From an uncultured bacterium (GTDB lineage: Bacteria; Bacillota; Clostridia; Lachnospirales; Lachnospiraceae), in the NCBI GenBank assembly GCA_947063875.1, contig CAMSTY010000005.1, positions 27,281 through 91,280 of the forward strand: a stretch of 64,000 nt of DNA, written 5' to 3'. The number at the start of each line of letters is the position of its first letter. Position 1 is the first letter of the stretch. The notes under the pieces are model-generated. The model saw nothing but the letters and a program-made list of their open reading frames with translations, ran no database searches and was not told where the DNA came from. Below are positions 1 through 27,340 of this stretch, one piece after another. Made by a program: the position numbers and the translations under genes.

Positions 1-596
1 CGGTCCATAGTAGAATAATAAATTCGCAGGAAGTCTTCTAAATAAGCGCCGTTATTTTCGATAAGGATTTCAAGATTATATGTATTAGCCCTCTTGACAT
101 TTTTCCTGACCTTCTGCTTAAAATCCATCCACATAGCATCAAGCGGCATTTCCAACGACCTTACTACATTATGCATTCTTGTCTCTACATCTCCATCGTA
201 ATGCTTATAATAATCGGTAAAAAGTTCAAATCTCACAAACTCACAAACATAGCGGTTTCTCATGCAATAATCTGTATACTCATTATTCAGTTTTTTCCAA
301 TCGGAAACATTTCCCCAAAATCCTCCGTAACCATATGGTGTTATAAGATCATAATATTGGCCTTCTTTAATTTTTCCGCTTAATTTCTCATCCTGCGCCA
401 CATCACGTCTTAAAACTACATTGATCGCACGATCCGCACCACTTTCATATAGCAGAAGCAATGGCATGCCATTTTTGGGTTCTTCCTTCATAAATGCTTT
501 TGAGTATCCGGAAAGATAAAAAACATCATAATCAGGGAAAGACCTTACGATTTCATCCCACGCTTTAGCATTGTCTATAGCTATTTCCCGAATCAT
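1..596 (-). CDS. FemAB/GNAT-like N-acyltransferase, partial (runs off the left edge; absent from the ORF track)
   Basis: Manual minus-strand translation from ATG at 596..594 is open to base 1: MIREIAIDNAKAWDEIVRSFPDYDVFYLSGYSKAFMKEEPK...DAMWMDFKQKVRKNVKRANTYNLEILIENNGAYLEDFLRIYYSTMD; the 'KVRKNVKRA...' region resembles FemAB/GNAT acyltransferases; ATGA overlap with the upstream gene. Confidence 0.75.
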   Translation of the reverse strand, partial: MIREIAIDNAKAWDEIVRSFPDYDVFYLSGYSKAFMKEEPKNGMPLLLLYESGADRAINVVLRRDVAQDEKLSGKIKEGQYYDLITPYGYGGFWGNVSDWKKLNNEYTDYCMRNRYVCEFVRFELFTDYYKHYDGDVETRMHNVVRSLEMPLDAMWMDFKQKVRKNVKRANTYNLEILIENNGAYLEDFLRIYYSTMD

Positions 597-1330
597 GCTG
601 TCCTTCTACGCCCCCTTCTGCAAACATTTGCAGGAACGGTAAAGAACCGTATGTTTGTAATTATCTTATAGGAGAAATACCCCCCCCCGAATCTGGATTC
701 TGAAGCCTTATCTTTCAGCATTTTCTTAACAGGAACCCCTATATAGGTCCCTTCCTCCTCTATATCCTTTATGACTACTGCTCCGGCGCCAAGAGTGACA
801 TTGGAACAGATATTAACATTATTAGAAATGATCGCACCTGCGCCCACCCAGCTACAGCTTCCAATACATACGGTTCCAGACAAGTGCGCTCCTACCGATA
901 CATGGCAATAATCACCGACTGCACAATCGTGATCAATGGAACTGGAAGTGTTTACTATGCAGCCATTGCCAATTCTGGCTCCGGAATTGACTACAGTTCC
1001 GGCCATTACTACAGTCCCTTCGCCTATAACCGCATCCTCTGCAATCACAGCATTCGGATGAATCAAAATAGGAAAGTCTCTGCCCTGGTCTCTATTCATC
1101 AATCTCTTGCGGATATAAGCATTACCAACAGCGACAATGATTTTGCCTTGAAGACCTGCAGTCATCGTATCCGGACCCAGTACCGGATACCCGGCACATT
1201 CTTTCAATCCGGAATTGTTGTCCAGAAATACAATGTCCTCATAGCCATTCAGCTTTGCAATGTCAGCCACGACCCTCCCATGTCCGCTGGCGCCGATAAT
1301 AATAAGCCTGTTCAATCTGGTGTCCTCCAT
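593..1330 (-). CDS. NeuD/PglD-family sugar O/N-acetyltransferase (left-handed beta-helix hexapeptide repeats)
   Basis: N-term 'LIIIGASGHGRVVADIAKLNGY' and hexapeptide repeats 'VIGEGTVVMAGTVVNSGARIGNGCIVNTSSSIDHDCAVGDYCHVSVGAHLSGTVCIGSCSWVGAGA'. Confidence 0.88.
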   Translation of the reverse strand: MEDTRLNRLIIIGASGHGRVVADIAKLNGYEDIVFLDNNSGLKECAGYPVLGPDTMTAGLQGKIIVAVGNAYIRKRLMNRDQGRDFPILIHPNAVIAEDAVIGEGTVVMAGTVVNSGARIGNGCIVNTSSSIDHDCAVGDYCHVSVGAHLSGTVCIGSCSWVGAGAIISNNVNICSNVTLGAGAVVIKDIEEEGTYIGVPVKKMLKDKASESRFGGGYFSYKIITNIRFFTVPANVCRRGRRRTA

Positions 1331-1989
1331 TGCGCTTTTACCCCTTCTGGTGTTCCCATAAATTCCTCCATCGTTGACGACGTCTCGGAACTGATTCCTT
1401 CTCGTTTTATGACAGTTCGTATAGTATCCAGGGCAATCTTCACGTCATTGATAAAAGTAACATTCTTTGTATACCATACATCCATCGCAAACTTATCTTC
1501 CCAGGACACGCTATTTCTTCCATGTGCCTGTGCATATCCAGTTAGTCCCGGTCTCACATCATGCCTGTGATGTTGTTCTTCGTTATATCTGTCAAAGTAT
1601 CTTACCAGCAATGGTCTTGGGCCTATCAGGGACATGTCTCCTTTCAAGATGTTAAAAAACTCTGGGATTTCATCAATGCTGGTCCGGCGCAGCCATGATC
1701 CAAAAGATGTCAGTCTTACACTGTCTAGGAGAACTTCTCCCTTTTCATCCCTTTCATCTGTCATGGTTCTGAATTTATACAAACGAAAGATTCTTTCTTT
1801 GCCAGTTTTAAGGTCGATTTTCCCCAAACGATCCTGCTTGAACAATACCGGCGATCCTAGTTTTACCCTAACAAGTATTGCTATAATGACATACAGCCAA
1901 CAAAACAGTATCAGCACTAGCAAAGAGCATATGACATCAATCAGCCGTTTAAAGAAAAGAGCATATAAGCCTCTTTTTGCTTTTTCCAT
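1312..1989 (-). CDS. Undecaprenyl-phosphate sugar phosphotransferase, PglC/bacterial sugar transferase family
   Basis: FFKRLIDVICSLLVL..., 'SFGSWLRRTSIDEIPEFFNILKGDMSLIGPRPLLVRY', 'RHDVRPGLTGYAQAHGRNSVSWEDKFAMDVWY'; ATG at 1989 preferred over ORF start 2031. Confidence 0.92.
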   Translation of the reverse strand: MEKAKRGLYALFFKRLIDVICSLLVLILFCWLYVIIAILVRVKLGSPVLFKQDRLGKIDLKTGKERIFRLYKFRTMTDERDEKGEVLLDSVRLTSFGSWLRRTSIDEIPEFFNILKGDMSLIGPRPLLVRYFDRYNEEQHHRHDVRPGLTGYAQAHGRNSVSWEDKFAMDVWYTKNVTFINDVKIALDTIRTVIKREGISSETSSTMEEFMGTPEGVKAQWRTPD

Positions 1990-2005
1990 ACAATATAATC
2001 TCCAA

Positions 2006-2322
2006 TTATTCAATGCACACCTTGATGGCATCTATTACCACATCTTGCTGCCAAAGCACCCTCTTACTGTCACTTGGAAGACACAATCCTCTGCATTGTA
2101 TGGAAACGATTGCTTCCAGGATCTCCGACAGGCTGAACTTTCCTGTTTCTTTTATATGTCAGACATCCCATTCATCCCTGACCTGTTTGCAAATAACACT
2201 CAGATCTATGATCAGACGACTGGGCCAGAACTCACTATTCTCTACATCATACGGATTCATTTTCATCGGAAAATTTGTAGCATTCAGAAATTTTGCTTCA
2301 TCCTCAATGATGTTATCCCTCA
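2006..2322 (-). pseudogene. Decayed, internally deleted C-terminal remnant of a second DegT/DnrJ/EryC1 aminotransferase
   Basis: One minus-strand frame with one TGA reads ...TNFPMKMNPYDVENSEFWPSRLIIDLSVICKQVRDEWDV*HIKETGKFSLSEILEAIVSIQCRGLCLPSDSKRVLWQQDVVIDAIKVCIE*, collinear with LPLRMNPYEEGISRPNYWLSCILIDPDAMCETVRGE, PGKSCPDEILGAL and RGLCLPSDNKMTEEEQGLVIEVV in the adjacent intact gene. Confidence 0.85.
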
Positions 2323-3618
2323 CCCAAAACACCGCCTCACCACCTCGATCACCAGTCCCTGCTCCTCCTCTGTCATCTTATTATCCGACGGCAGGCACAA
2401 GCCCCGGTTAAAAATATCCGCCCCAGCATCCACCGCTCCCCCTTCTTCTATATAAGCGTTGCTCCTCCCTCTCCCGTTCCCTTCCCTTGTCACGAAGGCA
2501 TGGTTCCGGTAGATCGGCTGCATGTGCATCGGCTTCCAGATCGGGCGGCCTTCCATATGGAAAGCCGCCAGCGCCCCCAGGATCTCATCCGGGCAGCTTT
2601 TCCCGGGTTCCCCGACATACAGCGCCTGCCTCTCCCCCCGGACCGTTTCACACATGGCATCCGGATCGATCAGAATACAGCTCAGCCAGTAATTGGGTCT
2701 GCTGATCCCCTCCTCATACGGATTCATCCGCAGCGGCAGTCCCTTCAGCCCCTCGCGGTACCGTTCATAAACCCTCTTCTTTGCCTTGATATGTTCCTCC
2801 AGATGCCCCCACTGCCCCCTCACCACGCCGGCGATCACATTGCTCATCCGGTAGTTGTAGCCCAGTTCCTCATGCTGGTACCAGGGGGCATCCTCCCGGG
2901 ACTGGGTGGACCATTTCCTGGCCTTGTTCGCCTCCCTTTCCCCTTCCACCAGAAGCATCCCGCCACAGCTTCCGGTGATGATCTTGTTCCCGTTAAAGCT
3001 GATAATGGAATAGTCCCCAAAGGCGCCGGTCTGCTTCCCCTGGTAGGTCGCTCCAAGGCTCTCTGCCGCATCTTCAATCAGAAGCGCCTGATGCTGCCTG
3101 CACAGGGAACGGATTCCCTCCATCTTTCCCGGCGTCCCGTACAGATGGGCCACCACTACCAGTCGGACATCCGGATACCTCTCGAATGCAATGCGCAGCG
3201 CTTCGGGATCCATGTTCCAGGTCCCGCCCTCCGTATCAATAAAGACGGCCTCCCCGCCCTCATAGGCAACTGGGTTCACCGTGGCGTCAAACGTCATGTC
3301 CGTGCAGAAGACGCGTCGGCCTTCCAGCGTCCCATGCCCGACTCTTGGCTGGCCATACAGCCTTTCCCCGGCCAGCTTGACCGCCAGATGGAGCGCCGCC
3401 GTACCGGAGGAAAGGGCAACCGCATGCCTGACGCCGATATAGTTTTCTGCCAGCCGTTCCAGTTCATTGATATTTTCTCCTACCGTGCTCATCCAGTTCG
3501 TCCGGTAAGCCTCTGTGATATACTGCAGTTCCTCCCCATGCATGGTCGGGGAGGATAGCCACAGCTTCCTCTTCAGTGGTTCGATGCCTCGAAACCTTGG
3601 GTCGTTTCTGATCTCCAT
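2320..3618 (-). CDS. DegT/DnrJ/EryC1/StrS (PglE-like) PLP-dependent sugar aminotransferase
   Basis: 'VALSSGTAALHLAVKLAG', 'IEDAAESLGATYQGKQTGAFGDYSIISFNGNKIITGSCGGML', 'MSNVIAGVVRGQ'; RBS aggag before ATG. Confidence 0.92.
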   Translation of the reverse strand: MEIRNDPRFRGIEPLKRKLWLSSPTMHGEELQYITEAYRTNWMSTVGENINELERLAENYIGVRHAVALSSGTAALHLAVKLAGERLYGQPRVGHGTLEGRRVFCTDMTFDATVNPVAYEGGEAVFIDTEGGTWNMDPEALRIAFERYPDVRLVVVAHLYGTPGKMEGIRSLCRQHQALLIEDAAESLGATYQGKQTGAFGDYSIISFNGNKIITGSCGGMLLVEGEREANKARKWSTQSREDAPWYQHEELGYNYRMSNVIAGVVRGQWGHLEEHIKAKKRVYERYREGLKGLPLRMNPYEEGISRPNYWLSCILIDPDAMCETVRGERQALYVGEPGKSCPDEILGALAAFHMEGRPIWKPMHMQPIYRNHAFVTREGNGRGRSNAYIEEGGAVDAGADIFNRGLCLPSDNKMTEEEQGLVIEVVRRCFG

Positions 3619-3699
3619 AATCGGTTCTCCTGCTAAATCTTGGAAATTTTTCTAATTAAGCTTTTCTGACAATAAACTTTTTTAATGTTTTATACATAG

Positions 3700-3727
3700 A
3701 AAAAAGGAAGGGATTCCCTTCCCTTCC
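3700..3727 (-). terminator. Intrinsic terminator between loaP and the glycan operon (candidate LoaP antitermination target)
   Basis: Minus strand GGAAGGG-AAGGGAAT-CCCTTCC-TTTTTT: perfect 7-bp stem and T6 tract. Confidence 0.85.
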
Positions 3728-3744
3728 AAACACTCTTTTACTCT

Positions 3745-4251
3745 TCATACTCTCCTTACAACCTCCAACCCCACCGCCACTTCCTGCACCCGGCCAAACA
3801 TATGCATTTCCACCAGCGCTGTCCGTTTATGCCGGTCAACCTTGCGGATCACGGTCTCCAGGCCTTCCAACGGCCCTTCCAGTATCATCACCTGATCGCC
3901 TTCCATATATCCGGTAGACATCGCCACCAGGCGTTCTTCATTGAGCAGCTGCTCCAGTACCCGCAGATCCTCGTCGATAATCGAAGTCCATTTTTCTCCT
4001 GTTCCCAGAATCTTTGTCAATTCCGGCACCTGTTTAAGTTCCATATAAAATTTTTCAATCTTTTCCGTCTCCACAAATACATATCCAGGAAACAAAAGCG
4101 CCTGGACTATATGCCAGGCGCCTGCGTACTTCTTTTTCTGTTCATATCTTGGTAAAAAGCATTCTCCAAGGCTGGAGTCTGCCACATATTGGCGGATCAT
4201 GGAAACGGTCTCCCCCTCTCTTCCAGTCCGCACCTGCATAACATACCACAT
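3745..4251 (-). CDS. loaP: LoaP-type NusG-paralog transcription antiterminator
   Basis: MWYVMQVRTGREGETVSMIRQYV...LFPGYVFVETE...LGTGEKWTSIIDEDLRVLEQLL...GDQVMILEGPLEGLETVIRKVDRHKRTALVEMHMFGRVQEVAVGLEVV: NGN plus KOW; ATG at 4251 with GGAGGAACGTT RBS (ORF track start 4359 is too far upstream). Confidence 0.85.
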   Translation of the reverse strand: MWYVMQVRTGREGETVSMIRQYVADSSLGECFLPRYEQKKKYAGAWHIVQALLFPGYVFVETEKIEKFYMELKQVPELTKILGTGEKWTSIIDEDLRVLEQLLNEERLVAMSTGYMEGDQVMILEGPLEGLETVIRKVDRHKRTALVEMHMFGRVQEVAVGLEVVRRV

Positions 4252-4411
4252 AACGTTCCTCCAGTTTACAAACCGGGAACTGTGTCTGAAAATGGGTATG
4301 CTTCGCCATTCGCCACAAAAAAATGTCACGACAAGGCAAAACAATATAACCTCAAACACAGTTAAACGCGGCCACGCGACGATTTAACTTTGATTGATTT
4401 TATGATAATGC

Positions 4412-4427
4412 GTGCGCATCAGCGCAC
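4412..4427 (-). promoter_or_regulatory. Short GC hairpin in the loaP 5' leader
   Basis: GTGCGC-TGAT-GCGCAC perfect inverted repeat just downstream of the predicted promoter. Confidence 0.6.
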
Positions 4428-4433
4428 TTCCTC

Positions 4434-4461
4434 ATTATATCATACATTCCCGAAAAGTAAA
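4434..4461 (-). promoter_or_regulatory. Predicted sigma-A promoter for loaP
   Basis: Minus strand TTTACT-N16-TATAAT. Confidence 0.55.
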
Positions 4462-26605: not shown

Positions 26606-27340
26606 TTAAAGCACCTTATTCAAAAAACTGATGGTCCGTTCCTCTTTCGGATTCCCAAACACTTCTTCCGGCGTTCCTTCCTCAACAATATAGCCATCAT
26701 CCATAAAAATCACCCGGTCTGCCACCTCTCTGGCAAACCCCATCTCATGAGTTACCACTACCATCGTCATACCGTCCGCTGCCAGCTGCTTCATAACTTC
26801 CAGCACCTCACCCACCATCTCCGGATCTAAGGCGCTGGTTGGTTCGTCGAAAAGCATGATATCCGGATTCATCGCCAACGCCCGGGCAATGGCAACCCGC
26901 TGCTTCTGGCCGCCGGACAGCTGCCCCGGATAAGCATCGGCTTTATCCGCAAGTCCTACCCGTTCCAGAAGTTCCAATGCTTTATCGGAGGCGGCCGCCT
27001 TTTCCATCTTTTTCAATTCTACTGGCGCCAGGGTAATATTCTCCCGCACTGTCAGATGCGGAAACAGGTTGAAATGCTGGAATACCATTCCGATATTCTC
27101 CCGCACCCGGTTAATGTTGATATTGGGATCAGAAATGGGATGTCCGTCCACATTTACCTCTCCCGCCGTAATTTTCTCCAGACGGTTCAGGCAGCGCAGG
27201 AACGTACTCTTTCCTGATCCGGAAGGCCCGATCAGGCAAACCACCTCGCCTTCCTCCACTTCAAGGCTGATCTTCTTTAGCACTTCAAGCTGGCCAAAAT
27301 TTTTCTTCAGGTTTTTTACCAGGATTTTTTTATTTTCCAT
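26606..27340 (-). CDS. Polar amino-acid ABC transporter ATP-binding protein (GlnQ-like)
   Basis: Walker [16 protein letters not shown], signature [34 protein letters not shown]. Confidence 0.95.

Follow-up and report, generated by a model that had tools for sequence, protein, structure and literature searches.

What recruits a LoaP-type antiterminator to a long operon of which its own gene is the first, and which terminators would it have to override there? The locus considered here lies in the window (the whole 64,000-nucleotide stretch of Lachnospiraceae DNA that was analyzed). The original prediction for it was a LoaP-like gene with its own promoter, a leader hairpin (4427..4412) as a candidate determinant of antitermination and, in the gap before the next gene, an intrinsic terminator (3727..3706) that gates the glycan genes. 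The elements named are real, and all of them belong to the minus strand, which is a correction to the original description.

The antiterminator assignment is borne out by family scores: the loaP product reaches 181.2 bits against the NCBIfam model for LoaP (NF033641; cut-off, 125), whereas the rival models NusG (78.4 bits), UpxY (62.6 bits; cut-off, 100) and RfaH (TIGR01955, 56.8 bits; cut-off, 144.5) each stay below their own cut-offs. Among Pfam domains, NusG is above its cut-off and KOW slightly under. As in other LoaP systems, the gene is adjacent to a long biosynthetic operon. Large ORFs on the same strand extend from 31.5 kb down to 1.9 kb of the contig (~29 kb, with 280 bases at contig positions 27001..27280 unread), encoding, after loaP, an aminotransferase, a sugar transferase, a NeuD-like acetyltransferase, nucleotide-sugar dehydrogenases, epimerases, a flippase and an MBOAT protein. 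Based on this gene content, the ~29 kb run headed by loaP is a large surface-glycan operon. The aminotransferase (2320..3618) has TIGR04181 as its best NCBIfam match, yet under the cut-off. A run of nine C at 680..688 (G9 in the coding orientation) falls in the 3'-terminal part of the NeuD-like ORF (593..1330), just past the matched domain, and is a possible slippage site or assembly error. Coordinates of the features are given in Table 1.

Table 1. Features of the loaP locus in the window, in order of decreasing position.
Feature	Position	Strand	Basis or remark
Promoter TTTACT-N16-TATAAT, extended TG	-35, 4461..4456; -10, 4439..4434	minus	consensus scan, 10/12
Perfect hairpin GTGCGC-TGAT-GCGCAC	4427..4412	minus	at the expected 5' end of the transcript
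Whole leader per covariance model R1	4394..4286	minus	82.2 bits, E 1.1e-18
E1 hairpin, GUUAAA-U-CGU-C-GC-GUG-GC-CGCG-UUUAAC	4388..4361	minus	proposed LoaP recognition hairpin; identical in close orthologues
Linker block GAGGUUAUAU, family consensus GGUCAUA	4353..4344	minus	alignment A4; invariant in close orthologues
P2 hairpin, right before E2	4334..4310	minus	proposed pause hairpin; hairpin score, arm swaps
E2, TGGCGAAGC-AUACCC	4308..4294	minus	proposed ops-like pause/loading site; A4 alignment, distant leaders
loaP, 168 aa	ATG 4251, stop end 3745	minus	Shine-Dalgarno GGAGG from 4262
Weaker terminator-like hairpin then UUUUU, inside loaP	4182..4159	minus	-9.4 kcal/mol
Terminator-like hairpin GCGCCUGGCAUAUAGUCCAGGCGC then UUUUGUUU, inside loaP	4121..4098	minus	-15.4 kcal/mol
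Intergenic terminator-like hairpin GGAAGGGAAGGGAAUCCCUUCC + U6	3727..3706; T6, 3705..3700	minus	GGAAGGGAAGGGAATCCCTTCC stem-loop
LegC-like DegT/DnrJ aminotransferase, first glycan gene of the operon	2320..3618	minus	Pfam PF01041, 243 bits
Bacterial sugar transferase (priming glycosyl-phosphate transferase)	1312..2031	minus	Pfam PF02397, 195.7 bits
NeuD/PglB-type sugar O-acetyltransferase	593..1330	minus	NCBIfam TIGR03570, 220.7 bits, above cut-off

The promoter that had been claimed for loaP was found at 4461..4434; it is kept in the 91%-identical orthologue and partly in an 81% one. The 4427..4412 hairpin, for which a search upstream of homologous loaP genes had been proposed, matched only copies from its own genome among 306 loci and no other fetched genome, and comparison of the leaders shows it to be absent from the 91% and 81% orthologue loci. 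Being confined to one genome, it was rejected as a LoaP recognition element. The gap after loaP does hold the anticipated terminator-like hairpin (-15.3 kcal/mol, z -2.6 versus shuffles, followed by T6), but this terminator is missing after loaP in the 91% and 81% relatives, and only 8 of 72 loci have one between loaP and the next gene, so that a general gate at this place is not upheld. The 3727..3706 hairpin is missing from close relatives whose leader and loaP are the same, and hence cannot be the gate that defines such operons. Over the ~3.9 kb downstream of 72 loaP genes, terminators are more numerous on the sense than on the antisense strand (64 vs. 33), in line with operons that are laden with terminators. 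The broader expectation, a loaP gene at the head of a glycan operon with intrinsic terminators downstream, is supported by the family score, gene content and folds.

A leader RNA hairpin retains its probable role, at 4388..4361 (E1) rather than at the unconserved 4427..4412. E1 is within a conserved part of the leader (4394..4286) that had been overlooked in the original prediction, as had the hairpin inside loaP (4121..4098). Relative to the 91% and 81% orthologue loci, ~130 nt of the window leader are near-identical, above the conservation of the coding sequence, while the flanks diverge (own-clade conservation is based on four close genomes), and the leader itself folds with a z of -3.8. 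In an alignment of 39 leaders (A4), gathered by the presence of GGCGAAGC, the E1 core is fixed as UCGUCGC-NNN-G(C/U)CGCG and the outer stem varies with compensation (UUAAA/UUUAA, UCAAA/UUUGA, CGGAA/UUCCG). Across 64 leaders, 95.3% of the E1 cells are paired versus 81.1% in shuffles, seven pairs have both partners changed, and covariation scores 0.434 (0.149 ± 0.012 in shuffles); in an independent alignment of 39 leaders, 96% of cells pair versus 84.5% when shuffled. A C-G pair of the core has become U-A in three leaders. Loops are UUCG in 10 of 39 leaders, with UUUG, AUUG and CUUG among the others and GUGG in the window genome. Judged by covariation, the E1 hairpin is under strong structural selection, and the 64-leader analysis makes it the predicted counterpart of the RNA hairpin that LoaP systems have in the leader of the target operon.

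The distance from E1 to E2 is conserved (50-70 nt, median 58). Immediately before E2, P2 has a hairpin score of 16.2 compared with 9.9 ± 2.8 in shuffles; its sequences are variable, each pairs better with its own arm (11.8) than after 3' arms are swapped among sequences (7.5 ± 0.5), and the 3' arm ends 2 nt before GGCGAAGC in most leaders. GGCGAAGC is present in 39 of 39 rows of A4 (the selection criterion) and TGGCGAAGC in 38 of 39. As the set was collected with GGCGAAGC, conservation is to be judged on leaders found otherwise: E2 is present in most model-found and distant leaders, and its variants (GGCGGAGC, AGCGTAGC, GGTGAAGC) are nearly all GNA between GC and GC, or a wobble form thereof. 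TGGCGAAGC alone is not rare (0.76 expected per 64 kb), and its weight is a matter of context and conservation, not of rarity. The flank of E2 in A4 has T/C at +2 in 34 of 39 rows and A/G at +3 in 34 of 39; the base of P2 is ~12 nt ahead of a pyrimidine (34/39) followed by a purine (34/39), with a G ten positions upstream. This layout fits a consensus pause reinforced by a hairpin.

Other pairings within the leader were set aside. Pseudoknot pairing of the GGUCAUA block with the tail that follows E2 showed a weak excess (8.67 vs. 8.01 ± 0.27, reached by 3 of 300 swaps) and is not claimed. E1 and E2 (GCUUCGCC with GGCGAAGC) are complementary where the loop is UUCG, and this pairing has no covariation support because E1 loops vary whereas E2 is constant. 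A possible terminator hairpin in the E2 tail, judged by eye, was dropped for its A-C mismatches in most sequences.

Used as a DNA-only query against 397 genomes of the family, the leader landed beside LoaP genes of other genera, mostly with 43-46% protein identity, and we judge it functional because a DNA search independently recovered it next to LoaP genes. Covariance model R1, whose E-values are rough, has the window leader as its only strong match in 91 kb of contig and in the whole genome. Of 80 named loaP loci the model hits 52, with almost every hit in the orientation of loaP, and it also hits 35 of the 397 genomes. At E < 1e-6 there are 27 family matches, ~21 of them upstream of loaP and three cut by contig ends. 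Matches at two loci (L148, L152) stand before a LegC-like aminotransferase with no loaP between, and one further match has no recognized gene after it. At L160 and L211 the leader runs straight into glycan genes with no adjacent loaP, and at four Ruminococcaceae loci (L075, L080, L081, L083) it follows closely on loaP and is succeeded by a sugar-transferase-like gene. Its distance to the start codon ranges from 30 to 400 nt. Since it can be placed after loaP, or before glycan genes without adjacent loaP, the leader looks like a cis target that tracks the glycan operon and not the translation of loaP, as would be expected of a LoaP target site.

In Clostridium ljungdahlii, two operons of the leader-loaP-glycan type are separated by 28 kb. 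Kandleria vitulina, which is outside the Lachnospiraceae, carries three leaders, and all of them precede a LoaP gene or a fragment of one. On contig C8 of K. vitulina, two near-identical leaders (L202, L206) lie 1.2 kb from each other; the first leads into a broken loaP frame, and behind the second loaP is intact and glycan genes follow. Two leader matches at one distant locus, L032 (3574-3693 and 6874-6991), precede AAA-ATPase-like genes, not glycan genes, and one of them is opposite to the loaP strand. No such leader is directly upstream of the Thermoanaerobacter-type loaP genes, whose product we take to be the crystallized LoaP (8f5g). Two pattern matches in viruses, with no loaP or glycan genes nearby, were read as chance, and the search for LoaP on plasmids returned only distant NusG paralogues (<60% identity).

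The Rfam scan of the window gave tRNAs only, with no family at threshold in the leader. At relaxed thresholds, RAGATH-28 (RF03052) aligns over its full length and on the right strand to the window leader (15.7 bits) and also to the leaders at four further loci (22 to 27.5 bits); its Rfam gathering score of 45.3 is reached by no LoaP leader aligned (best, 27.5 bits). Both RNAs have the same order of hairpin, ..CAUA.. linker, hairpin and 3'-end GAUGGCGAAGC, but the E1 sequence of LoaP leaders is unlike that of RAGATH-28. The only true member found (L210:1501-1586, 54.4 bits) has GGCGTAGC where LoaP leaders have GGCGAAGC, and the gene that it immediately precedes is phage terminase-like, not loaP. 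RAGATH-28 RNAs of this kind may be phage antitermination leaders; no function for RAGATH-28 was found in the searchable literature. A RAGATH-like pattern occurs in 26 viral stretches, none of which reached the Rfam threshold where tested. From these comparisons we take RAGATH-28 to be distantly related or analogous to the LoaP leader rather than a member of the same family. Near another LoaP-type leader there is a Clostridiales-1 RNA (RF01699, 79.2 bits; L146:1-141), cut by the contig end.

Intrinsic terminators after the recruitment hairpin, a further feature of LoaP systems, are predicted by sequence and fold at 4121..4098 and 3727..3706. In four orthologues the 4121..4098 hairpin is invariant save for one loop base. 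It falls within a run of 20 codons (4152..4093) that shows no synonymous variation in a gene where 93 of 168 codons vary (reached in 0 of 20,000 permutations). When synonymous codons were shuffled 1000 times, an equally stable hairpin with a U-tract arose in 5 cases. At the weaker site (4182..4159), a hairpin is also present in two 81% orthologues and is not called in the 91% one. Within loaP genes generally, 38 sense and 23 antisense terminators were counted, with 22.4 expected from codon shuffles. Given this modest excess, the claim of a terminator inside loaP is restricted to the window clade; farther from this clade, loaP genes have different hairpins at the place of 4121..4098, and not all have one. 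The suppressed synonymous variation suggests autocatalytic control.

The sequence itself establishes the LoaP gene, its operon, terminator-like hairpins and a leader with conservation, covariation and gene context. We consider it likely that together they form a control module in which LoaP is captured at E1, loaded at E2 and carried through the downstream terminators, making expression of the glycan operon autocatalytic. RNA polymerase would start from the promoter at 4434..4461 and transcribe E1 (4388..4361), which would be bound by LoaP, itself the product of the operon's first gene. At P2 and GGCGAAGC (E2) the polymerase would pause and be held while LoaP docks, possibly via a mini-hairpin, GCGAAGC, formed by the non-template strand, in the way that RfaH docks at ops. 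The modified polymerase would then ignore the two terminators in loaP (chiefly 4121..4098), the one at 3727..3706 and probably more in the operon. Expression would be autocatalytic because one obstacle is within loaP itself: if 4121..4098 terminates, LoaP would be required to complete its own mRNA, a positive feedback that is potentially all-or-none. Several observations count against this reading. The E1 loop in the window is GUG(G), not UNCG; the residues matching E40 and R41, which B. velezensis LoaP needs for binding the dfn hairpin, appear as K and K in an approximate alignment through 8f5g; and the Thermoanaerobacter-type loaP genes without the leader, the modest general excess of terminators in loaP genes and the two L032 matches point the same way.

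Several other readings of these data have to be weighed. Recruitment of LoaP by the 4427..4412 hairpin, with the 3727..3706 terminator gating loaP against the glycan genes, has both hairpins in place and a terminator that is sound by sequence; this arrangement can hardly be right, as the first hairpin is in no other fetched genome, close orthologues are without both and the conserved, covarying hairpin of this leader is a different one. The leader might instead be a structured 5' UTR for translation or stability of the loaP mRNA, or be bound by a factor other than LoaP, which would agree with its good fold and with its place in many genomes, a short way ahead of the loaP Shine-Dalgarno. Leaders that come after loaP, or before glycan genes without adjacent loaP, and the wide range of distances to the start codon make this quite improbable.

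It is unlikely, in our judgement, that E2 acts as a non-template DNA element and is the main, ops-like recruitment signal, with E1 just tuning the response or serving another factor. E2 is conserved more widely than the E1 sequence, GGCGAAGC(A)T resembles ops GGCGGTAGCGT, and the G at -10, Y at -1 and R at +1 match the consensus pause. GNA loops (GCGNAGC, as in GCGAAGC) and GNNA loops (GCGGTAGC) belong to one class of very stable DNA mini-hairpins (PMC4686876), and RfaH recruitment needs an ops hairpin with a C3:G8 pair (PMC5995543). The structure of E1 is nonetheless strongly selected, purified B. velezensis LoaP bound leader ssDNAs weakly and nonspecifically (PMC12691694), and an 18-nt E2 ssDNA folded with standard parameters, which may miss special loops, forms no stable hairpin. 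For the hairpin inside loaP, we give real but lesser credence to the view that it arises incidentally from constraint on the protein there, or from recombination among close relatives, and does not terminate. The hairpin encodes a conserved stretch before FPGYVF, and distant loaP genes have other, non-universal hairpins at the same place; the 20 synonymous-invariant codons in so variable a gene, and a stability reached in just 0.5% of codon shuffles, argue against this view.

Capture of LoaP at E1 and loading at E2, the reading we prefer, resembles in outline the LoaP system of B. velezensis, in which a leader RNA hairpin is essential, a downstream pause helps and NusA is antagonized at terminators; this sole studied LoaP system gives no sequence rule for the pause (PMC12691694). 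The window and LoaP/dfn have in common LoaP, a leader hairpin, a pause (proposed here) 3' of the hairpin and later intrinsic terminators, some within genes (PMC12691694). By analogy, E1 probably fits the leader-hairpin role and P2-E2 the pause role. Unlike in dfn, loaP is here the first gene of the target operon, the target is glycan and not polyketide, and no terminator is called between the leader and loaP, one being inside loaP instead. The pause candidate also differs, combining a hairpin with a near-invariant GGCGAAGC at fixed spacing, and E1 has UCGUCGC-NNN-GYCGCG where the dfn-type hairpin is generally UNCG-looped. Part of E1 may already have been shown in earlier LoaP papers.

With RfaH/ops (Enterobacteria, JUMPStart; PMC5995543) the locus shares a NusG paralogue at surface-polysaccharide operons, a leader element GGCG..AGC.T, consensus-pause features and a possible non-template mini-hairpin. 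The published ops sequence is GGCGGTAGCGTG (PMC5995543). Its GGCGGTAGCNT is not in the window leader, which reads GGCGAAGCAT, analogous and not identical. The GNA loop of E2 is one nucleotide shorter than the GNNA of ops; E2 is preceded by an RNA hairpin at ~12 nt whereas ops is a class II backtracking pause; the window leader has the extra upstream hairpin E1; and the protein of the locus scores as LoaP and misses the RfaH cut-off. The likeness of E2 to ops is a structural analogy, not a demonstrated homology. UpxY (Bacteroidales capsules, invertible promoters; PMC12118408) is likewise a NusG paralogue encoded by the first gene of a capsule operon, but belongs to a different NusG subfamily, for which the window protein falls short of the cut-off, and the window promoter, unlike UpxY promoters, showed no sign of invertibility. 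EAR, in Bacillales biofilm/capsule operons (cited in PMC12691694), is likewise a leader RNA tied to antitermination of polysaccharide operons in Gram-positives, and the Rfam scan brought no family above threshold in the window leader.

With the leader, LoaP recruitment gains a rule at the sequence level, along with a covariance model and numerous natural replicates, and the leader predicts LoaP-controlled glycan operons in gut Clostridia, including those without adjacent loaP. It also suggests that a single system can draw on both an RNA hairpin and an ops-like site for recruitment and offers a candidate role for the orphan RNA motif RAGATH-28, while the hairpin inside loaP proposes a simple positive-feedback switch for surface glycans. 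A wider generalization is tentative, and as a whole rather doubtful: that Clostridia use a two-step LoaP signal, with capture at E1 and, ~58 nt on, a hairpin-reinforced pause at which the non-template strand forms a GCGNAGC mini-hairpin recognized in the manner of ops, that RAGATH-28 and phage leaders are of the same class, and that the operon of the window clade is autocatalytic via the conserved terminator inside loaP. No description of a two-step LoaP loading signal was found in the accessible literature.

Elsewhere in the window's own genome there are three tandem loaP pairs (contigs C2, C54 and C85), with inverted repeats (19-48 nt) flanking a sigma-70-like promoter upstream of the first loaP (L006:1283-1465, L005:2110-2318, L003:1-171). 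By eye, one of these promoters points towards loaP and two point away, which suggests that they are invertible and phase-variable. The second loaP of two pairs (L003:758-869, L002:1366-1492) has a weak leader match with the same linker and E2 and a different E1 (AAUCGCUGAAGCAUUGGCACAGGGRUUU); such paralogue-specific hairpins could keep several LoaPs apart.
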